The notes: generated from the letters alone by a model not told the origin. A DNA stretch of 64,000 nt from Pseudobdellovibrionaceae bacterium (GCA_022843825.1 JALHMX010000005.1:1-64000), one strand, 5' to 3'. Shown: positions 25,544 to 35,133, counted from the stretch's first letter. Program-made: numbers and translations.

Positions 25544-25619
25544 GTTCCCATCGTCTAGTGGCCTAGGACACCTCCCTTTCACGGAGGATACAGGGGTTCA
25601 AATCCCCTTGGGAACGCCA
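25544..25619 (+). tRNA. tRNA-Glu (anticodon TTC), integration target
   Basis: A 76-base cloverleaf. The acceptor stem GTTCCCA pairs with TGGGAAC. The anticodon stem CCTCC/GGAGG has the TTC anticodon at 25578-25580, and CCA is encoded. Its 3' 31 bases form the left part of a 37-bp direct repeat whose second copy lies at 35097-35133. The element has therefore integrated here and restored a complete tRNA. Confidence 0.97.
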
Positions 25620-25625
25620 ATATTT
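25589..25625 (+). repeat. attL: 37-bp direct repeat overlapping the tRNA-Glu 3' end
   Basis: Identical over 37 bases to 35097-35133. It covers the T-arm, the acceptor 3' strand, CCA and six bases beyond the gene. The sequences diverge on both sides, which defines the crossover region of the integrative element. Confidence 0.93.
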
Positions 25626-25657
25626 CTCGCAACATATTGAAATCACTCATATTTTTA

Positions 25658-25685
25658 TACAGGAATCCCTGTAATTTTACAGGGG
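25658..25685 (+). promoter_or_regulatory. Clustered TACAGG motifs between attL and the integrase gene
   Basis: TACAGG-AATC-CCTGTA (25658-25673) is an inverted pair. It is followed by TACAGGGG (25678-25685), the same 8 bases that open the attL repeat at 25589 and attR at 35097. These may be integrase binding sites and may also control integrase expression, since they end 10 bases before its start codon. Confidence 0.4.
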
Positions 25686-25695
25686 TTATAGGTGA

Positions 25696-26862
25696 GTGTA
25701 TTATTTAGCTATTTACTTTATAAGACTGCCAGCCGATATAAAGTTTATGGGTTATACAGCACGTAAAATTAAAAATAATATATATATTTATCACGAGTCT
25801 TATAAACCTAGGACACAAAAAATAGTCCCACGTGATAACTATATCCACTTAGGTTTTTCGAATTCTATGTCATTAGAAGAAGCCAAAATCCGCTGTAAAG
25901 AATTAAATATTGAAGACCAGATAGAACGTACAAATATAAAAAAGACTCAAACACTTGAACGCATTAGAAAACAAAAGTTATCTTATGTAGCTTTTTTGCC
26001 TCATACCAGGGTTGAACGTTTCATAAGTGAACTAGAAGCTGATTACTCTGATAACCCTGAGAGACTGAATAATGTTAAAAAATTGTGGTCTTCAGCCAGC
26101 AAGATAATCACTACACTGAAGCTAGATTTTACAAAGTTTTTTGATAATAGAAATTTAGTATATAATTATTTTAAGAATGAAGCCTATTCGCCTGATTATA
26201 TCAAAAAATTGATTTGGATTATTAACAAATGGGGTGAATTCAGTGCTCGACAAGTTTCGGCCTATTATAAAGACATTCCCAAATTACCCTCTACTGCAAA
26301 GCAGATCATTTTGGATAAGCGTCAAGGTAAAGATGACATAAAACGCGCTGCTGATTTAATAACTTTTAAAGAACTAAAAAATCTTAGGACATCATTTAAG
26401 AATCAAGAATTAGAAATGCAATGGAACTGGATGTTCGTTGCTTTCAGTTTTGGTTTACGACCTACCGAATGTGATTGGCTTTTATCACAACCACACACTC
26501 CGATTGAATATGACAAGCAAAATAAATGTCAGGTTTTAAAAATATATCAATCAAAGCTTACTTCAGTTGACCATAAGGATAGATTTAAAGTTATTCCTGT
26601 GTATCTTGAAAATCAAAAAGAAGCCTTAAAACTAATTGAATCAAAGAATTTTAAAAGACCACTTAATAAGACTCTTAAAAGAATATTTGACCATAATGTT
26701 CAAACCTATTCGCCACGTAAAAGCTTTACAGACTTTATGCTTGAAAATAAATTCCAGCTTGAAGACATCTCTATATTTCTAGGTCACCGAAGTATCGACA
26801 TGACATGGCGTCATTATAAAGGTCGAACTAAGTTTAACTTACCTAAACGAAAAGCTGCCTAA
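25696..26862 (+). CDS. Tyrosine recombinase (integrase) of the element
   Basis: Site-specific recombinase expected to integrate and excise the element at tRNA-Glu. The catalytic residues can be placed as R255 (FGLRPTE), K287 (YQSKLTS), R341 (YSPRKSF), H364 (LGHRS) and Y374 (TWRHY). The usual histidine of the HxxR box is tyrosine here (Y338). The N-terminal part (about 15-80) has the DUF4102/AP2-like arm-binding look, and the core-binding domain is about 100-200. The GTG start at 25696 has AGGGG upstream; an ATG at 25747 is an alternative. Its position next to attL is typical of integrative elements. Confidence 0.92.
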   Translation: MYYLAIYFIRLPADIKFMGYTARKIKNNIYIYHESYKPRTQKIVPRDNYIHLGFSNSMSLEEAKIRCKELNIEDQIERTNIKKTQTLERIRKQKLSYVAFLPHTRVERFISELEADYSDNPERLNNVKKLWSSASKIITTLKLDFTKFFDNRNLVYNYFKNEAYSPDYIKKLIWIINKWGEFSARQVSAYYKDIPKLPSTAKQIILDKRQGKDDIKRAADLITFKELKNLRTSFKNQELEMQWNWMFVAFSFGLRPTECDWLLSQPHTPIEYDKQNKCQVLKIYQSKLTSVDHKDRFKVIPVYLENQKEALKLIESKNFKRPLNKTLKRIFDHNVQTYSPRKSFTDFMLENKFQLEDISIFLGHRSIDMTWRHYKGRTKFNLPKRKAA

Positions 26863-26879
26863 ACCTGAAAGGTCATGCA

Positions 26880-27203
26880 ATGAAAAAAATACTCTTATTA
26901 ATTCTCATTAACGTCTTCGCCAGCTGTACCAAACCAAAGGTAACCAACTGGCAAGGTACGTATTACCCTAAAGGTTGTTTAACATGTGATGAGTTTTATG
27001 AATATAGCCCGATATTTAAAACATTTAAAGAATGTAAAAGTTGGGCAGATACCAAGATAAAAGATACCATCGACAAAGTTTCGTGTGGACGGCAATGCGA
27101 ATTTGAAGGCCAGTTAGATATGTCTAAATGTGATTTAGTTGTTAGGTCTTGGGCAGTCCCATTGTTTCCTGACTCACCAACCTTTGATACTTATAAAGAA
27201 TAA
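26880..27203 (+). CDS. Small cysteine-rich lipoprotein in the element
   Basis: A 107-residue product with a type II signal peptide (lipobox-like VFASC at C16). The mature part contains several cysteines (KGCLTCDEF, FKECKSW, VSCGRQCEF, SKCDL), likely disulfide-bonded. GAAAGG precedes the ATG, 17 bases after the integrase stop, so it may be co-transcribed with the integrase. No family was recognised. It could be a cargo surface protein or an entry-exclusion-like factor, but nothing in the sequence shows which. Confidence 0.7.
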   Translation: MKKILLLILINVFASCTKPKVTNWQGTYYPKGCLTCDEFYEYSPIFKTFKECKSWADTKIKDTIDKVSCGRQCEFEGQLDMSKCDLVVRSWAVPLFPDSPTFDTYKE

Positions 27204-27229
27204 TTTTGCTGTACCTATTCAGATTTAGC

Positions 27230-27778
27230 CTATCTGTTGTAGGCAAGTTCTAGTTTATAAAAATCTGGTTCAGCATGACAAATAGCTACTCCATCTGGAT
27301 TACTACAAAACGCAACTGTGCTCTTATCACTACCTCGCACTATTATACTTAGGGAAGTTACTTCTTTTTTGTTGTTTATAACTGGGACAACTCTACTTAA
27401 ATCCTCAAATATTTTATAATATGTTTCTATGGCGTTCGACTTGGTTACCAGCTCAGCATTAACCTCTGTTTTGTAGTATGTGACAAAGTGATGGACGACC
27501 AAATTAGACTCATTATCGTAGACTGAAAATACTTCTGAGCCAGTCGGTCTAATCTTAAGATATTGCCAGTCACTAATGTTTCGCTCAACATAAGTAATTG
27601 CATACTTTTTTAATGAAGATTTAAGTAACTCCTCACCTTTTAATATTAAACGTTCTCGTTCTTTTATAGAAAGTAGATCAGCTCTCTTAGTAGCAACAAC
27701 AGAAGTAGTCTTTTTATCTTCTTTAATGACTATCAAGCAAGCGCCTATAATTAATATCAGTATAACTATGTTTTTCAT
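27230..27778 (-). CDS. Membrane-anchored hypothetical protein
   Basis: The 182-residue product has one N-terminal hydrophobic segment (about 4-18, IVILILIIGACLIVI). This may be a membrane anchor or, given the GAC, a lipoprotein signal. The rest is hydrophilic with mixed strands and helices and looks periplasmic. No known domain was recognised. It converges with the lipoprotein gene at 26880 and lies 26 bases from it. Confidence 0.6.
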   Translation of the reverse strand: MKNIVILILIIGACLIVIKEDKKTTSVVATKRADLLSIKERERLILKGEELLKSSLKKYAITYVERNISDWQYLKIRPTGSEVFSVYDNESNLVVHHFVTYYKTEVNAELVTKSNAIETYYKIFEDLSRVVPVINNKKEVTSLSIIVRGSDKSTVAFCSNPDGVAICHAEPDFYKLELAYNR

Positions 27779-27976
27779 TTCACTTTTATATCACAACTCA
27801 ATTTCCTTATGTGACAGTTTGTAAAAATGAAAGTCTTGTCAAAAGATTCAACAATCCAGGGTCAGCCTAACCTTTGAGAATGCTGTTCAATGGCTTAGTA
27901 CTTTTAATAGTATGATTGAATATATAGTAAAATATATATAGACCTAATCTTCGTTTTAAGGCTGATCGTCATTTAA

Positions 27977-27999
27977 AAATTAGCTGAAACAACTAATTT
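27977..27999 (-). terminator. Hairpin overlapping the end of the pentapeptide-like gene
   Basis: AAATTAG / CTAATTT with a 9-base loop, followed on the minus strand by TTTAAAT. The stem includes the TAG stop codon of the gene at 27993. Confidence 0.45.
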
Positions 28000-29129
28000 A
28001 TTTTAAACCGCTTTCTAATACCCAGAATTAAGAAAAACCACAATAAAAATATATATAAACGAATCACAAATTTAATAAACGGAATTAATGTATTATCTAG
28101 AAACCTAATGTTGGAATTACTAGTAATAATTTTTAATCCAGAATCACCTATAGCAGAAATTGGACTTACCAATACGGCTAAGTAATTATGAGCAAAATCA
28201 GTAATCAAGTTTAAATAAATATAGATATTATAATATGGGCTTTGTAGGATCTGCACCAAAAGACTGTATACACTTAACAGTAATGCTATAGCAGCAGTAT
28301 ATTTTACCATTGTCCAAAATGGTTTATATGTATCTAGTCCAAAACTATTTATCCAATCATAAGCTTTAAAAACTCTCGTCTCAATACTATTAGGATATCC
28401 AAGTGCCTGCTTGCGAGTGTATTGACTCTTTAACTCCAATGAACCAAAATAATTAGCCATTCTGTCATTTCCATTATCGCCGTAACAATTTTTTATATGC
28501 CTAAACGTACTAGTTTTTAATGGATCTCCACTTGTGAAATCACAATCATCAAAAAACACATTTTGCTTTAACTTTAAATGATTGAAACCACCAGCTTCAT
28601 CAAAGCTGCAATTATCAAATGAAATATGATCAATTAAAATATAGTCACGTTTTCTACTGGTTTCAGCTTCAACAACATGTATAACACTTCGTTCAAAATT
28701 TAAACCTGATATAACACTAGGGTCTCCGTACTCACGAAATTCTAATCGTCCGACACTGACATGCTCAAAATGTGTATATCTTGACGCCCCTTCTATCACT
28801 AAATTTTCTATCCTGTTAGGTTTTTCAGAATCACCGCCGGAAGTAAATCTTATTTGCCCGCCATATTGCTTTGTATCCCTTAAGCTAATCTCATCAAATT
28901 CACAGGCAAGAAATTCTAATGAAAATCTACTGTTCAACATTTTGTCTTTAGAATATAAAGGGTCTTGTGGTGTACTGTGGATGTACAGTTTTTCAAACTT
29001 GCAATTAACAAATTGAATATCCCCACCCATATACGCCAAACCTAAACTAATTTCTTTATTAGTAAACGCTGTATCGGTGAAGATCTGCGACATAACAATA
29101 CTTTCCATTTTAAATTGTGCTTTATTCAT
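27993..29129 (-). CDS. Pentapeptide-like repeat protein with C-terminal channel-like membrane segments
   Basis: A 378-residue product. The N-terminal two thirds contain degenerate F-x-x-C-x-F repeats typical of quadrilateral pentapeptide-type beta-helices (FVNCKFEKL, FLACEFDEI, ISFDNCSFDEA, VFFDDCDFTSG). Then comes the linker GNDRMANYFGSLELKSQYTRK and an INSFGLDTYKPFW segment. Both are seen in pentapeptide proteins fused to two-helix ion-channel modules. Membrane segments lie at about 275-295 and 348-373, with a less certain one near 310. The potassium-channel filter (TVGYG) is not visible, so any conductance is unproven. The gene is divergent from 29250. Confidence 0.65.
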   Translation of the reverse strand: MNKAQFKMESIVMSQIFTDTAFTNKEISLGLAYMGGDIQFVNCKFEKLYIHSTPQDPLYSKDKMLNSRFSLEFLACEFDEISLRDTKQYGGQIRFTSGGDSEKPNRIENLVIEGASRYTHFEHVSVGRLEFREYGDPSVISGLNFERSVIHVVEAETSRKRDYILIDHISFDNCSFDEAGGFNHLKLKQNVFFDDCDFTSGDPLKTSTFRHIKNCYGDNGNDRMANYFGSLELKSQYTRKQALGYPNSIETRVFKAYDWINSFGLDTYKPFWTMVKYTAAIALLLSVYSLLVQILQSPYYNIYIYLNLITDFAHNYLAVLVSPISAIGDSGLKIITSNSNIRFLDNTLIPFIKFVIRLYIFLLWFFLILGIRKRFKIN

Positions 29130-29195
29130 AAATTCAATAAATCAACCCACACTGGAAAACAGTCAATCAGAACTTCGATAGTTCTATCTTTTTAC

Positions 29196-29225
29196 TTGAC
29201 TTTAGCTTATGATTTGTGCTATATT
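29196..29225 (+). promoter_or_regulatory. Promoter for the divergent membrane protein gene
   Basis: TTGACT (29196-29201) and TATATT (29220-29225) are separated by 18 bases, 24 bases before the start codon at 29250. It is one of the better sigma-70-like matches inside the element. Confidence 0.55.
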
Positions 29226-29249
29226 ATGATTATCTGCTAGGACTACCCA

Positions 29250-30227
29250 ATGAACCTTTGGAACACAAAAGAAATTATTACTGGCACAATTGGATCTATA
29301 CTAGGTGCTATTGGATTTGCATCGATTGTATATATTTGGCGAAAATTCAAAACCCGCAATCAAATCGGCTTAGATAAAAAGATCGCTATAGAGTACTGGA
29401 GACTTTTTGGTGGACGCTCAGTACCTCTTTTGATGAAGTTATTAAGTGAACCTCACAAGCTAATACCTGATTCTAACTACGATCCTTACTATAATCGTGT
29501 TGAATTTTCTAATGACGAATGCAATCTCATAGATCAAAAACACTATAGCTTTTATACCAACCTTAAAAAAAAGCGTGATATTAGAATTTCAAGAGTGCTG
29601 TTATGGGATAAGTATGCAGGAAACCTTCAATTAGGTACTTGGAAAGATTTCTTAGCGAAAAAGCCAACAGATATTGAAACTTATCAATTAATTAATGACA
29701 ATGATCTTGACTCTGGCGCATCAATAAACGATTACCCATCTTCTTTAGATTGGAAAAAACATAGCTCAAACATGAAAGATCTTTCTGGTCAGGTTGGGTT
29801 TCTATTTCTAAGCATTAAGAACATTTCTAAGAAATCTCTAAGCAATTTAGAACTTACTTTAAACAAAGCTGAGGTTGAAAGTTTTTTACCTCAACAACGT
29901 GAAAACAGAATTAGAGGGGGTAACTCCTTTTCTCTTTTGAAAAAGAAGATAAAAGATAAAGGTTCTTTCGAAAAAATTTCAGCAGATAAGAACATTGTTT
30001 TTGCGGAACATATCAAGTTTAACTTAGGAACATTAGACCCTAGCACAGAAATACTATTTCTAATCGCAGTTTATAGATCTAATCAAAAAGGTTATGACGA
30101 TTTTTTTCTTGACGATGCTTATAAGCCAAAGTCAATCACATATCAGAATCTTAAAATGAAACTCAGAGAGCCCTTGAGAGATGCCTCTATTCGAGAACTC
30201 GTGCCTGATGGGTGGTTTCGGCAATAG
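29250..30227 (+). CDS. Hypothetical protein with N-terminal membrane anchor
   Basis: Not recognised. The 325-residue product has a membrane segment at about 9-30 (ITGTIGSILGAIGFASIVYIW) followed by a basic stretch, so the bulk is probably cytoplasmic (positive-inside rule). A possible beta-sandwich region around 185-285 (VGFLFLSIKNISKKSLSNLEL, then ILFLIAVYRSN) resembles immunoglobulin-like modules attached to membrane anchors. It diverges from the pentapeptide-like gene and is followed by a short gene at 30278. The arrangement would fit a small functional module. Confidence 0.6.
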   Translation: MNLWNTKEIITGTIGSILGAIGFASIVYIWRKFKTRNQIGLDKKIAIEYWRLFGGRSVPLLMKLLSEPHKLIPDSNYDPYYNRVEFSNDECNLIDQKHYSFYTNLKKKRDIRISRVLLWDKYAGNLQLGTWKDFLAKKPTDIETYQLINDNDLDSGASINDYPSSLDWKKHSSNMKDLSGQVGFLFLSIKNISKKSLSNLELTLNKAEVESFLPQQRENRIRGGNSFSLLKKKIKDKGSFEKISADKNIVFAEHIKFNLGTLDPSTEILFLIAVYRSNQKGYDDFFLDDAYKPKSITYQNLKMKLREPLRDASIRELVPDGWFRQ

Positions 30228-30277
30228 ATTAGTTTAAAAAGTGTTTTTTATCAGTAAGATATAGAAGGGGTTACTTG

Positions 30278-30553
30278 TTGAAAAAAGGAAAATATCCGGA
30301 AAAAATTCTGAAACTAACAAATAAGTTCGACGGAACTAATAAAATGTATTTAGACAAAATGATAGAAGACTTAAGAAAAAGAGGAAAACTCAATTTAGAT
30401 GATGACGTTTTTATTGAACTAAGTAAAATTGTTAATTTGAACGAATTGCCAGATTCACTATTAAAAGCGTTAAAAGATCTCTACCCTGAGCGCTCACTTA
30501 AGTATTTGATTACCCATCCAAACTTCACAAAGGTCAAAAAATTAAAGTCATAA
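30278..30553 (+). CDS. Short basic hypothetical protein
   Basis: The 91-residue, helix-rich and lysine-rich protein has no recognised domain. The TTG at 30278 was chosen because AGAAGGGG ends 7 bases upstream; a TTG at 30275 is also possible. It lies 50 bases after the previous gene on the same strand and may be read from the same promoter. Its small size and charge would suit a regulatory or antidote partner, which is speculation. Bases 30554-30789 after it hold no convincing gene. Confidence 0.5.
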   Translation: MKKGKYPEKILKLTNKFDGTNKMYLDKMIEDLRKRGKLNLDDDVFIELSKIVNLNELPDSLLKALKDLYPERSLKYLITHPNFTKVKKLKS

Positions 30554-30789
30554 TAGTAAATAATTAGTTTCACATGGGGAGATGCTACAGATATGCGTGT
30601 TTCTATACCTCAGTCATATTTTATTCATATATACCATTTAAAACGCAATAGAGCCAAATATATCGTTTATATCCTGTAAATAAGAAATGCAAATCCTGCT
30701 AAACTAGGAGTCGATTAGGAAGATTCTCAAAAAATTGCCGCCGCTATCCCAGAAACCAATCCGCCCACTAAAAGCCAGCACCCCTACCC

Positions 30790-30984
30790 CTACATTTTAT
30801 TAGCGTCTATAAAGCCCTGCATTAACATTTCAATAGCCACTGACGGCGAAACGCCTCGATCTTTGCAGGCCCTGCCAAAGCCCTTATACGTAGCTTTAGA
30901 AAGGTACAAACTTGTCTTTGTTCTATCGCCTTTAATACCATCAATCTTTTTAAGAACTTCTTTAGCAATTTTCTTAGTACTCAT
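30790..30984 (-). CDS. Small ribbon-helix-helix-like protein
   Basis: The 64-residue product starts at the ATG giving MSTKKIAKEV; a longer frame reaches 31035. The core TKTSLYLSKATYKGFGRACKDRGVSPSVAIEMLMQGFI fits the strand-helix-helix pattern of CopG/Arc-type DNA-binding proteins. These include plasmid copy-control proteins and antitoxins. It is divergent from the serine recombinase gene, so it may repress that gene. No toxin gene sits beside it on the same strand, so an antitoxin role is not supported. Confidence 0.6.
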   Translation of the reverse strand: MSTKKIAKEVLKKIDGIKGDRTKTSLYLSKATYKGFGRACKDRGVSPSVAIEMLMQGFIDANKM

Positions 30985-31039
30985 ACCTAAAGTGTAAATA
31001 AATCTATTTACAACTGTCAAATTATATACCGTCAAATAT

Positions 31040-31104
31040 ACCTAATTAATTATATAGAAGATATAGGGCCGGACTAAAGCTTGCATTAGCCTAATTAAAT
31101 AGGC
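31040..31104. promoter_or_regulatory. Repeated CCTAATTAA motif and inverted repeat between RHH and recombinase genes
   Basis: CCTAATTAA occurs near 31040 and again near 31091. The second copy is part of GCCTA-ATTAAA-TAGGC (31089-31104), an inverted repeat immediately upstream of the recombinase start codon. It could bind the RHH-like protein or the recombinase. Confidence 0.35.
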
Positions 31105-31111
31105 GGTACAA

Positions 31112-31702
31112 ATGAAAAAAACTGGAATATATGTCAGAGTATCTACGGATAACCAAAGTATAGATGCACAGCTACACTCTATAAAGAAGTATTGCGAATC
31201 CCAAGGAATAGCCAATTATTGCATATATTCCGATGAGGGTATTAGTGGAGCGGCTAAGTCTAGACCTGCTTTGGATAACCTTATTGACGATGTTGAGAAC
31301 TGTTGTATTGATACGGTTATCTGCTATTCATTATCTCGCATCTCAAGAACGACTACCCACCTCTTAAAGGTCTTAGAACGCTTTCAAGAACTTAATATAG
31401 ACTTTATTTCCCTAAGCGAGAATATCTCTTTATCAACTCCAGCAGGTAAACTAATGGTTACTGTTCTAGGCGCAGTATATGAACTAGAACGCTCTATAAT
31501 CAGGGAGCGAGTTATGTCTGGCCTTGCAAATGCCAAAGCTCAAGGGAAGAAGCTCGGTGCACCAAAAAGAAGAAACTCAGCATTAATTCGAGAACTGTAC
31601 AGACAAGGGATGAGTTATCGTAAAATCGCAGCTCTCGCTAGAGTGTCAATTGGCACTGTTCACGCTGAAATCAATGCGTGTTCATTAAAGCAGTCCGCCT
31701 AG
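31112..31702 (+). CDS. Serine recombinase (resolvase/invertase family)
   Basis: Small serine recombinase of 196 residues. The N-terminal catalytic domain has the nucleophile S11 in YVRVSTDNQS, with R9 beside it. The arginines of SLSRISRTT and the long E-helix region (ELERSIIRERVMSGLANAKAQGK) follow. The C-terminal helix-turn-helix is SYRKIAALARVSIGTVHAEI. It resembles Tn3-type resolvases and Hin-type invertases. It could resolve element dimers, invert a segment or help maintain the element. No matched inverted crossover sites were noticed nearby. Confidence 0.9.
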   Translation: MKKTGIYVRVSTDNQSIDAQLHSIKKYCESQGIANYCIYSDEGISGAAKSRPALDNLIDDVENCCIDTVICYSLSRISRTTTHLLKVLERFQELNIDFISLSENISLSTPAGKLMVTVLGAVYELERSIIRERVMSGLANAKAQGKKLGAPKRRNSALIRELYRQGMSYRKIAALARVSIGTVHAEINACSLKQSA

Positions 31703-31772
31703 AAAAATAAACATTTAAGTCTGTTTAGTAGATTGTAGATAACTAAACAAATTATAAACACAGGAGAACTAA

Positions 31773-31835
31773 TATGATTTCATTAGGCCTAATCCTCTTC
31801 GCTTTATATGTGATATTCTACATCATTATGTACTA
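31773..31835 (+). CDS. Possible 20-residue hydrophobic membrane peptide
   Basis: An ATG with AGGAG 7 bases upstream opens a 20-codon frame ending in TAG. The peptide begins MISLGLILFA and ends IIMY. It has no charged residue and is made almost wholly of Ile, Leu, Phe, Tyr, Met and Val, so it would form a single membrane helix. The frame fills the gap between the serine recombinase and the XRE regulator. Peptides of this size and composition include type I toxins such as Ibs and small regulatory membrane proteins. No antisense RNA promoter was identified. Confidence 0.45.
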
Positions 31836-31874
31836 GATACAGAATTAAATTCTTTAACGAAGGAATTATATAAC

Positions 31875-32213
31875 GTGAGCGAGAATGTATTTAAAATTTT
31901 TCCTCATATAGCCGAACCGCTAGAGGATATGATTTTAGCTAAACAACTTAAAAACCTATTACACCGAGAAGATGCAACCGTCGCACAACTTGCCCGTGCT
32001 ACTAAAATATCTGCCAAAACTATTTACCAATGGCTACAAGGTCAGAATCCAAGGGATTTGAAACAAGTTCGTAAAGTTGCTGATTATTTTTCAGTGAGTA
32101 TTGATTTTTTAGCGTTTGGAATAGAGCCGAAAACTAAAAATAGTTTTACCGACTATAGCGAAGAAATCAATGCAGGACAATTTGAAGTTATATTAAGAAA
32201 GATTAAGGCATAA
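31875..32213 (+). CDS. XRE-family transcriptional regulator
   Basis: The 112-residue protein has a Cro/C1-type helix-turn-helix (about residues 37-85: TVAQLARATKISAKTIYQWLQGQNP, then LKQVRKVADYFSVSIDFLAFG). This layout is common in phage and element repressors. The start is GTG with GAAGGA upstream. A short C-terminal tail probably mediates dimerisation. As the only classic repressor-like gene in the element it may control integrase or recombinase expression, or the small hydrophobic peptide just upstream. Confidence 0.85.
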   Translation: MSENVFKIFPHIAEPLEDMILAKQLKNLLHREDATVAQLARATKISAKTIYQWLQGQNPRDLKQVRKVADYFSVSIDFLAFGIEPKTKNSFTDYSEEINAGQFEVILRKIKA

Positions 32214-32214
32214 A

Positions 32215-32649
32215 ATGAAACCATTTTTTTTTATAATGTTCTTAGTGCTTATCGTGTCTTGTAAAAATAGCTATCAAACAGATAGCTCTAGCACATCAGT
32301 AGGAGATCAAAAACTGATTGGCACTTGGAGGTACATTAGCGACACCTGCAATTCCGTCGAAACTCCAACAACATGGGATTATAAAATGATAATTAGTCAA
32401 AATGGCGCAACAGTCGTTAATGTCAATCTTAACGATGTAATCTCTCCTTGTCTCTTTTCATTTAGCGCCACATCCTCTGGAAATGAAATCAACTTCTCAT
32501 TTGCCCCAACCAAGTCTTCACTAACAGGCAGCAGTTGTATAAATCATATAATTCTAAATGATCCAACCATAGAACCCTATATAATTTCAAACAATGATTT
32601 ATTGTTGACGAAGCAAGATGGTTGCATTACCAAATACACAAAAGATTAG
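32215..32649 (+). CDS. Lipoprotein with lipocalin-like body
   Basis: A 144-residue product with a type II signal peptide (lipobox-like LIVSC at C16). The mature part reads KLIGTWRYISDTC, then alternating strands with four cysteines, and ends LLLTKQDGCITKYTKD. The GTW opening and strand pattern recall the lipocalin-like domains of many small bacterial lipoproteins. It starts one base after the XRE stop codon, so the two may be co-expressed. Confidence 0.65.
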   Translation: MKPFFFIMFLVLIVSCKNSYQTDSSSTSVGDQKLIGTWRYISDTCNSVETPTTWDYKMIISQNGATVVNVNLNDVISPCLFSFSATSSGNEINFSFAPTKSSLTGSSCINHIILNDPTIEPYIISNNDLLLTKQDGCITKYTKD

Positions 32650-32668
32650 AATTAATCGAAAGGCTAAT

Positions 32669-32950
32669 ATGAGGAATATATTTTTTATTATTTTTTTATT
32701 TGGCTCTTCTATTTCTTTCGCAAAAACATTTGATAGCAAAATTAAAGTTGGTGATTGTATTTCCATAAAAGGCTTTTTAGATGCATACCATGTGTCTGCT
32801 ATAGTTCAAGTCCCAGTTGCAAAAGAGGAAACACTCTACCAAGGATATGCATTGACCTACAAGTTACCTGACAAAACGTTCTCACAAATAGGAACATTTA
32901 TCCCTAGCTTGGTAAATAGTAAGCATTGGAATAAGGTCAGTTGTAACTAA
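32669..32950 (+). CDS. Small secreted hypothetical protein
   Basis: The ATG at 32669 was chosen because it begins a clear signal peptide (MRNIFFIIFLFGSSISFA) behind GAAAGG. The longer frame from 32618 would place 17 non-signal residues first and overlap the previous gene. The mature protein is about 75 residues, mostly beta, with two cysteines (VGDCISI and VSCN). Function unknown. Confidence 0.6.
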   Translation: MRNIFFIIFLFGSSISFAKTFDSKIKVGDCISIKGFLDAYHVSAIVQVPVAKEETLYQGYALTYKLPDKTFSQIGTFIPSLVNSKHWNKVSCN

Positions 32951-32984
32951 CTGATTTAAATTTACTGCATGGTGGCAACTTAAA

Positions 32985-33509
32985 ATGAATTTCAATATTA
33001 TATATAGAGAAATATTTATTTTAGCGTGCTGGATCTTTTTTCCTGTCGGGCTGCTCGTGCTTATCATAATTCACACTTTTAAGGCTTTTAACTCAACACA
33101 TAAACTAACCAACAACGATAAGCCTGAGATGTTGTTAGAAAATAATAACTGCAAAATGCCAACCGTAACTAAACTGTTACATTATAGATCTAAAATTAGA
33201 TGTGTTAATCTGCCAATGAAAAATATAAATAAAAATGTAGCTTATCTAGAACAGCGCCCTCAACATGATGCTTATAATAATTGTCTATTTAGACTACAAC
33301 AATTAGTTGAGCACTATGGAGAAACCGATGTGTTTAACACCATTCAAGATATATATTATACATCACATCCTGAATTAGCATGGCATTTAAAAAATCTGAT
33401 AAGTACGTATAATATAGAATGCGTTAAAGATGCAATGGCAATGGTTGAATGGAGTACAAATACTAAAATTCTTGAAAAATACTACAAACTGAAACGCACA
33501 GGAGAATAG
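32985..33509 (+). CDS. Hypothetical membrane protein
   Basis: The 174-residue product has one strong N-terminal membrane segment (about 8-33, REIFILACWIFFPVGLLVLIIIHTF) and a soluble C-terminal region. It has no recognised domain. Its 3' end contains AGGAG, well placed to serve as ribosome site for the Sel1-like frame that begins two bases after its stop codon. Confidence 0.6.
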   Translation: MNFNIIYREIFILACWIFFPVGLLVLIIIHTFKAFNSTHKLTNNDKPEMLLENNNCKMPTVTKLLHYRSKIRCVNLPMKNINKNVAYLEQRPQHDAYNNCLFRLQQLVEHYGETDVFNTIQDIYYTSHPELAWHLKNLISTYNIECVKDAMAMVEWSTNTKILEKYYKLKRTGE

Positions 33510-33510
33510 T

Positions 33511-33894
33511 ATCTTAAAAGCTCTACTAGGTATCCTTACTGTTAATATAATTTCTTTTTCCTATGCCCAGTGGATTGTACCGCCTAAATCCTACTGGCCT
33601 AATCTATCAGAAATAAATAACTTCCATAAAGACTGTACTATCCAATCTAATGGACAAGCTTGTTATAACTACGGTGTACACTTAACTCAAAATCTTCTTA
33701 AAGAAGATGAAGGCATTGCGTTTTACAAAAAAGCCTGTGAACTTAAAGATTACCTAGGATGCTTCAATCTAGGGGCAGTTTTAATAAAATACGAAGAAAG
33801 CCTTAATCAAGGAATCCTTTATCTGGAAAAAGCCTGTCCAATAGTTCCTGATTCATGCAAGCTATTACAAGCCGCTTTAAAACATCAAAAGTAA
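33511..33894 (+). CDS. Sel1/Hcp-like secreted protein without a canonical start codon
   Basis: A 127-codon frame with a convincing signal peptide (LKALLGILTVNIISFSYA) and cysteine-containing Sel1-type repeats (GQACYNYGVHLTQN, YKKACELKDYLGCFNLGAVL, LEKACPIVPDSCKLL). This is the pattern of Helicobacter cysteine-rich (Hcp) proteins. The frame contains no ATG, GTG, TTG or CTG at all. Its first codon is ATC, 6 bases after AGGAG, exactly where a start is expected. Either ATC is used as a rare start, or the ATG has mutated (or been misread) and the gene is silent. It abuts the preceding membrane protein gene. Confidence 0.6.
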   Translation: MLKALLGILTVNIISFSYAQWIVPPKSYWPNLSEINNFHKDCTIQSNGQACYNYGVHLTQNLLKEDEGIAFYKKACELKDYLGCFNLGAVLIKYEESLNQGILYLEKACPIVPDSCKLLQAALKHQK

Positions 33895-34148
33895 AGCTAT
33901 AGACTCCTCACTTAAAAGCCTTTCACTGAGTTCATAAAATTCCTGTTAGTTTTTAACAACTCCTAAAAATAAACCTTTTCTCTTCAAACAAAAAATCAAA
34001 AATCTAAAAAAATCCAAAAAACTCATTTTTTTACGAATATGCAGTCGATTACTAAATAAATATATGAGATCTGAAGACGCCAAAAGCAATACATTGCTCA
34101 TAAAAAAATAATTCATTTTCTTTCAAAAAAACTCTCTGAAAAAAAACA
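33895..34148. other. AT-rich gap in the element
   Basis: A very AT-rich, poly-A/T-tract-containing stretch between the Sel1-like and nuclease genes. No coding frame, convincing hairpin or repeat was seen. An origin or regulatory region is possible but not supported. Confidence 0.3.
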
Positions 34149-34248
34149 AGTGAATATATGGGGATATTTTTTCAAAGATTCCCATCTGAAAAATCAAAGC
34201 CGAGCATCAAATGCTTTAGGCAAGCTATTACCCAAACGAAGGGCAAAC

Positions 34249-35028
34249 ATGAAAAAGAATCCTCGCAGATACATTGTACCATATCACACTAAAACAGATA
34301 AAAGAAATCAGGAGTTAGCTGGTCATTACCTTGAAGGGCAATACTCAATTGAAAAAACCAATATCTCTAAAAAGGAACTTGTTGAAAAAGATCTTATAAC
34401 AACAATAACGCCATCTGAAAATACCTTTAAAAGTCATTTCTACCGCCAACTACAATCAAACATTGCATTTTATGTAGCTCACCAGGCTTTTATACTTACC
34501 TATGGGAAATCAACACAAAAGCAACTTTTAAAATCATCAGACAATGCACATCTCGTTCAATACTTAGATTATATAACAATCTATAGACCTGATTTTTTAA
34601 TACCCCTTTATGGAATTGCTATAGAAATTGATGGACATATTCATAACAAGGATAAAGTTAAACAAACAAAGGATAGCTTAGCTGATTATGCTTATGCTGG
34701 CGTTGATTATTACATTTTCAGAATATCTAATGACGATGTTCACAGCCCAACCAAAAGACAAAAATTTATTAATGCTATTAATGCTTACATCGCTGAATGT
34801 AACACCGACCCTAGTCTACTTAAAAAATACCAAGCACGGCGCACAAGACAATCAACTTTAAGAAAAAAATATAAAGCCTTACCTCAACATCTTAAGAAGT
34901 CCTCGGTTGAAAAAAACCTAACCACTCCCATCAAAGACTCTGCTCGCTCTAAATACCAAGCTCACTATTGTGACGAACATGTCTATTGGACAAAGATAAG
35001 ACCAGTTAGCGCCATTCGCAAGAAATGA
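34249..35028 (+). CDS. Vsr/DUF559-like nuclease
   Basis: The core YRPDFLIPLYGIAIEIDGHIHNKDKVKQTKDSLADYAYAGV is the PD-(D/E)xK-type layout of the DUF559/Vsr endonuclease superfamily: D148 of PDF and E159/D161 of EIDG (numbered from the GTG at 34150), followed by a histidine and the YYIFRISNDDV strand. The ATG at 34249 was preferred because GAAGGG sits 5 bases upstream; a GTG at 34150 adds 33 residues. The C-terminal region (about 225-292) is strongly basic and probably binds DNA. It is the last gene before attR. It may act in element transfer, replication or defence. Confidence 0.7.
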   Translation: MKKNPRRYIVPYHTKTDKRNQELAGHYLEGQYSIEKTNISKKELVEKDLITTITPSENTFKSHFYRQLQSNIAFYVAHQAFILTYGKSTQKQLLKSSDNAHLVQYLDYITIYRPDFLIPLYGIAIEIDGHIHNKDKVKQTKDSLADYAYAGVDYYIFRISNDDVHSPTKRQKFINAINAYIAECNTDPSLLKKYQARRTRQSTLRKKYKALPQHLKKSSVEKNLTTPIKDSARSKYQAHYCDEHVYWTKIRPVSAIRKK

Positions 35029-35096
35029 ATAATTCCTAAATAGCCTGATTTTTACTCATTGCCTAATTTGAATAATGCACTACAGTAGAAATAAGT

Positions 35097-35133
35097 TACA
35101 GGGGTTCAAATCCCCTTGGGAACGCCAATATTT
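35097..35133 (+). repeat. attR: second 37-bp direct repeat
   Basis: An exact copy of 25589-25625 (3' end of tRNA-Glu plus six bases) without the rest of the tRNA gene. It marks the right end of the element and overlaps nothing else. The SOUL-family gene ends just beyond it at 35135. Confidence 0.93.

Follow-up and report, generated by a model that had tools for sequence, protein, structure and literature searches.

A 64,000-nucleotide stretch of DNA from a Pseudobdellovibrionaceae bacterium (GCA_022843825.1 JALHMX010000005.1:1-64000; "the window" is this whole stretch) contains a real, complete, and non-autonomous island integrated in a tRNA-Glu gene. Judged from its sequence, the island is best read as related to satellite-like elements. 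Its transfer we infer: as a complete integrative island of cargo and regulators that lacks autonomy, it is probably moved by a helper, more likely a phage. Its boundaries are set by three features:

25544–25619, + strand: tRNA-Glu(TTC), the integration target, intact on the left (ARAGORN; Rfam, tRNA 6.2e-12)
25589–25625, unstranded: attL, a 37-bp repeat identical to attR
35097–35133, unstranded: attR, a 37-bp repeat identical to attL

The perfect 37-bp repeats reported in the initial annotation are indeed 100% identical, and the window contains no other exact repeat of at least 20 bp. Each copy comprises the final 31 bp of tRNA-Glu(TTC), the sole gene of its type, placed by both ARAGORN and Rfam, plus 6 bp downstream. 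Since attL spans the 3′ end of the tRNA gene, the whole tRNA lies on the left and the right copy is a displaced 3′ end. From repeat start to repeat start, the unit measures 9,508 bp. Its GC content is 33.4%, compared to 40.4% in the remainder of the window and 40 to 42% in the flanks; 72 other equal-sized stretches of the window ranged from 38.1 to 42.0%, with none below 38.1%. Direct repeats of a tRNA 3′ end, a whole tRNA, and an integrase adjoining one att site, the marks of a tRNA-targeted island, are thus all present, and together with the drop in GC content they bear out the exact boundaries that had been proposed. Because the source genome is a 2.4-Mb draft in 33 contigs, the repeat could in principle have been created by assembly or binning. 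We consider this highly improbable: The element, its two repeats, and the flanks on either side all lie within a single 152-kb contig, and the same architecture was seen independently in a relative.

The target site was compared in 14 congeners using the 31-bp tRNA end, with up to two mismatches allowed. Two copies of this end were found only in the island's own genome and in G010, while five congeners (G001, G002, G003, G004, and G008) have a single one; in G001, a terminator lies directly 3′ of tRNA-Glu. The end was also found in G009, at a contig end, and in the closest relative, G007, where one contig breaks inside tRNA-Glu just as the repeat begins and a second contig has an attR remnant adjoining a gene family found beyond the tRNA in G004. 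Genes on the right flank vary among congeners, so there is no exact before-and-after pair flanked by orthologs, and the single copies are therefore read as evidence for unduplicated sites. These are the empty sites that the initial annotation had proposed to look for; the opposite situation, a relative with the same genes at this locus but without the second repeat, was not found.

In G010, the same tRNA-Glu is occupied by a different 5.2-kb element with its own repeats (L031, 3424–8631), which encodes an integrase of another lineage, an AlpA-like protein, a DUF559 nuclease, ParE, a lipoprotein, and Xre. The two elements share the target, homologous DUF559-type proteins that on a circular map lie close to the integrase end, and a homologous Xre accompanied by a lipoprotein; they differ in integrase lineage and in the AlpA-like and ParE toxin genes of the G010 element, in which the rest of the island's cargo has no homologue. 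A TerS-like identity considered for L031 5976–6398 was dropped, as it had no Pfam or PHROG match. The tRNA-Glu gene is an integration hot spot. Yet another integrase type uses the site in G023, a genome from the same family: There, a large serine integrase (L152, 7000–15192) overlaps the tRNA-Glu gene and is followed by a small serine recombinase, Xre, a secreted protein, and a lipoprotein.

Just inside attL lies the gene expected of an integrated element:

25696–26862, + strand: tyrosine recombinase (integrase) of an order-wide family (Pfam Phage_integrase, 0.0021; PHROG integrase, 3.2e-6)

The gene begins 71 to 122 bp past attL (the listed open reading frame runs from 25696; the probable start is the ATG at 25747). 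Although its Pfam match is below the cut-off, the tyrosine integrase, placed at one end as originally described, is intact and retains catalytic R255, H364, and Y374; its HxxR motif reads Y338-x-x-R341, and YxxR is found in 7/7 aligned members. The family occurs in 28 of the 141 genomes of the order. Relatives lie just 3′ of a tRNA gene (Met, Asn, Leu, Val, or Glu) at 16 of the 31 inspected loci, six of these with a repeat downstream; several of the non-tRNA loci are cut by contig ends. Cargo differs between these elements, with nearly no overlap beyond the integrase itself. The nearest relative (41%) resides in G085, between tRNA-Leu and an 18-bp repeat (L070, 8991–19716), a region that also encodes a fused major head and protease protein (phrog_4523, 3.7e-148) and that weakly matches a tail collar protein. 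With no terminase or portal seen in it, the G085 element is possibly a capsid-forming satellite or a cut-down prophage. A seven-sequence alignment of the integrase was too diverse to serve as a seed for scanning the collection, and a scan with a two-sequence alignment matched only the Pseudobdellovibrionaceae metagenome-assembled genome that corresponds to G085. As a side observation, a palindromic stretch just within attL (25661–25690), TACAGGAATCCCTGTA, precedes an incomplete att core (TACAGGGGTT), and the two together are a possible integrase arm site.

Capsid, terminase, relaxase, and replication genes had been reported as missing, and this holds at the sensitivity of Pfam, PHROGs, PADLOC, and NCBIfam. 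With no capsid, portal, terminase, or tail gene, the island is not a prophage, and with no relaxase (Pfam, PHROGs, and NCBIfam) it is not a relaxase-type integrative mobilizable element. It resembles PICI and PICMI satellites in being small and attached at a conserved gene, with a terminal tyrosine integrase, regulators, and envelope or defense-like accessory cargo. PICMIs, however, are Vibrio elements located at fis and are defined by a set of integrase, AlpA, and primase (PMC10803314). In a comparison with PICMI, PICI, and P4-like elements, only the integrase was present; AlpA-like and primase genes were absent in Pfam, PHROGs, and NCBIfam, and terminase is lacking as well. Since the island lacks all of the hallmarks of known satellite families that were tested for, we did not file the island as a satellite, and because it carries no satellite hallmark gene, that status is, from sequence, only possible.

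The same genome contains a second element, integrated in tRNA-Ser between perfect 34-bp repeats 7.7 kb apart (contig C11; L166, 7345–15103). It encodes an integrase, an AlpA-like protein, a DUF5906/D5 primase, Xre, lipoproteins, and an Xre/RES toxin-antitoxin pair, and thus contains the defining PICMI set, at a tRNA instead of fis. Its Xre belongs to the same family as that of the tRNA-Glu island (37%). One genome hence offers a paired test, with one element that has satellite-type replication genes and one that does not. The Xre-lipoprotein pair held in common with this satellite-type element, the head gene near the closest integrase relative, and the island's size, tRNA target, regulators, and accessory cargo would all suit a working PICI- or PICMI-like satellite with unrecognized replication and packaging functions. 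Given that the integrase stands alone from the PICMI set and that terminase and capsid genes are absent, we regard this explanation as possible yet somewhat unlikely.

Two further comparisons concern elements that travel with little machinery of their own. Tycheposons combine a partial tRNA repeat, a tRNA-adjacent tyrosine recombinase, and changeable cargo, and their kin extend from cargo carriers to capsid-bearing elements. All of these traits, the range of kin included, apply to the tRNA-Glu island as well; tycheposons differ in belonging to another host phylum and in having replication genes that the island lacks. The tycheposon family is named in the same work that describes integrative mobilizable elements moved from oriT alone (iOriT), which can dispense with their own relaxase (PMC11389934). 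The island shares with iOriT elements an integrase, att repeats, and the absence of transfer machinery. Two elements with integrase relatives (L065 and L071) have an AAA ATPase in common (E = 2.8e-13 when compared with each other) adjoining a protein of no known family, possibly a transfer or replication pair; the idea that their Rep-like proteins are known replication initiators was dropped for want of Pfam support. Conjugation of the tRNA-Glu island from an oriT alone would accord with the dispensable relaxase and with a transfer or replication role of the L065/L071 proteins; as the island has neither a relaxase nor these companion genes, we hold such a route to be quite unlikely.

The inner part of the island consists of four genes:

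30790–31035, − strand: small ribbon-helix-helix (RHH)–like protein, divergent from the serine recombinase (sequence; match in G013)
31112–31702, + strand: small serine recombinase of resolvase/invertase type (Pfam Resolvase, 1.7e-42; PHROG DNA invertase, 1.2e-54)
31875–32213, + strand: Xre-type regulator of an order-wide family (Pfam HTH_26, 2e-6; PHROG phrog_8, 5.9e-13)
32215–32649, + strand: lipoprotein paired with Xre (lipobox ...LIVSC; 1 bp after Xre)

The initial annotation had counted two recombinases. The tyrosine integrase stands, while the second enzyme is a small serine recombinase and not an integrase. This module recurs elsewhere in the order inside larger elements. The order RHH–serine recombinase–Xre–lipoprotein is repeated in G013 and G112, and over 41 amino acids the RHH-like protein is 51% identical to its positional counterpart in G013. 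In G023, G032, G034, and G052, the recombinase-Xre pair is kept and a nuclease-like gene replaces the lipoprotein; in G023, the module adjoins TerL (1e-112) and TerS (6.6e-33). The small serine recombinase was found in 52 and the Xre family in 59 of the 141 genomes of the order; the Xre protein has no IMG/VR match. An invertible DNA segment for the serine recombinase was considered, and convincing inverted repeats were not found.

Where a downstream partner could be read, the gene 3′ of an Xre family member had a hydrophobic N terminus in 26 of 32 cases, compared to 63 of 289 other open reading frames of the same loci (Fisher p = 3.6e-11, indicative only, given related loci and a predictor that is no more than a simple hydropathy rule). 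Across the family (L091 to L120 and others), the next gene mostly encodes a secreted protein, lipoprotein, or membrane protein, often with an overlapping start, and in four cases a nuclease-like protein. In one genus of the family, the locus of some pairs is resident in the chromosome (L107, L110, L111, L114, and L117), and the Xre-envelope pair is therefore not exclusive to mobile elements. The greater interest of these results lies in this wider pattern, the recurrence of such pairs and of the serine-recombinase switch in elements of predatory bacteria that are unrelated to one another.

We propose the following mechanism. The integrase would recombine a circular 9.5-kb form of the island with the final 31 bp of tRNA-Glu, rebuilding the whole tRNA on the left as the anatomy of the locus displays, and the integrated island would then be passive in the chromosome until excision and reintegration. 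The RHH-like protein and the Xre repressor probably govern excision and cargo promoters, and the probable task of the small serine recombinase is to resolve multimers or to exchange the Xre-linked cassette. The cargo could benefit the host through envelope proteins switched by Xre and, further, through two membrane proteins, one of them of beta-helix type, that resemble antiphage effectors. Since the island has no transfer genes of its own, it would move by means of a borrowed helper. A phage is the likelier candidate, compared with a conjugative element, since genes for terminase, capsid, or satellite-type primase occur in elements that contain relatives of the integrase and of the Xre module.

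Several observations weigh against this proposal. AlpA-like, primase, terminase, capsid, and relaxase genes are all absent from the island, so that the helper-phage route would be drawn by analogy. The integrase has no match in 50,697 phage records, 72,556 plasmid records, or viral contigs (IMG/VR). As for the suggested defense role of the membrane proteins, its basis is a weak match to HalA and the gene neighborhood of one homologue, both described below.

The initial annotation raised the possibility of an undescribed element type. This is too strong: Because similar small tRNA-targeted elements occur across the order, in a mixed population of which some members have satellite hallmarks, the island is better seen as one variant in a varied local population. 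A limited literature search yielded no account of small hitchhiker elements that target tRNA genes in predatory Bdellovibrionales. Such elements appear to be common in this order, sharing a hot-spot tRNA and a recurring regulator-envelope pair. A bolder view would unite them in a lineage-specific class of hitchhikers, in which a shared RHH/serine recombinase/Xre switch drives an exchangeable envelope or nuclease gene, several unrelated integrases and unknown helper phages provide mobility, and the tRNA-Glu island, with an integrase and the switch, is a minimal example; we think this rather unlikely. Should the Xre-envelope pair prevent phages from entering or change the surface of the predator, mobile DNA would be linked to phage resistance or predation in bacteria that are considered for biocontrol.

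The remaining genes of the island are as follows:

26880–27203, + strand: small predicted lipoprotein (N-terminal ...VFASC; sequence, no Pfam family)
27230–27778, − strand: secreted or membrane-anchored protein (sequence; no confident family in Pfam, PHROGs, or NCBIfam)
27993–29129, − strand: pentapeptide/beta-helix–like domain with C-terminal membrane helices, candidate membrane effector (weak NCBIfam HalA match; homologue in G059)
29250–30227, + strand: N-terminally membrane-anchored protein (homologue in a mobile region of G029)
30275–30553, + strand: small open reading frame (sequence)
32666–32950, + strand: small secreted protein (sequence; no family)
32985–33509, + strand: membrane-anchored protein (sequence; no family)
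33511–33895, + strand: open frame similar to a secreted Sel1-repeat protein, lacking an ATG, GTG, or TTG start (read from sequence)
34150–35028, + strand: DUF559/Vsr-like putative nuclease, the last gene before attR (DUF559, 0.0046; homologue in G010)

The candidate membrane effector at 27993–29129 belongs to a rare family (3 of 369 genomes of the phylum). It matched HalA, the Hailong effector, at E = 0.00099 (18.4 bits; cut-off, 250), and no HalB nucleotidyltransferase match was found among its neighbors; with HalA below the cut-off, the gene cannot be called a Hailong system. Its G059 homologue matches Pentapeptide_3 (1.2e-5). A low-confidence structure model places strands first and helices after; single-sequence models were poor (pLDDT of 53 and 35), and Foldseek returned nothing below E = 0.001, the best weak matches being pentapeptide-repeat proteins. 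The region around the G029 homologue of the protein at 29250–30227 looks mobile: It contains a serine recombinase that is cut, a primase-like gene (DUF3987), Xre together with a secreted TPR protein, and, next to the homologue, an AbiH-like gene. The homology and neighborhood of these two predicted membrane proteins are suggestive of defense cargo.

The Sel1-like frame at 33511–33895 is possibly a disabled gene. Its missing start codon, the broken integrases at related loci (one with stops in G037, another with ten stops in G018), and the absence of replication and packaging genes would fit a relict, that is, a larger prophage or satellite stripped of replication and structural genes that kept its integrase and cargo. 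Perfect att repeats and an intact integrase, serine recombinase, and regulators argue for recent integration instead, which leaves the relict explanation on the doubtful side. A complete, helper-moved island remains the preferred reading.

The nuclease reported in the initial annotation was upheld in part. The DUF559 match of the protein at 34150–35028 is below threshold (17.2 bits versus a cut-off of 20.6); it gains strength from a homologous protein of the G010 element (E = 1.2e-4), likewise in tRNA-Glu, that passes the DUF559 cut-off (5.4e-7; 29.9 bits). The probable start is the ATG at 34249, and the protein contains the residues E159-x-D161-G-x-x-H165...K171...D175; it has no phage match. 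The position of both DUF559 proteins near the integrase end, when the two elements are drawn as circles, hints at a role in the life cycle of the element itself.

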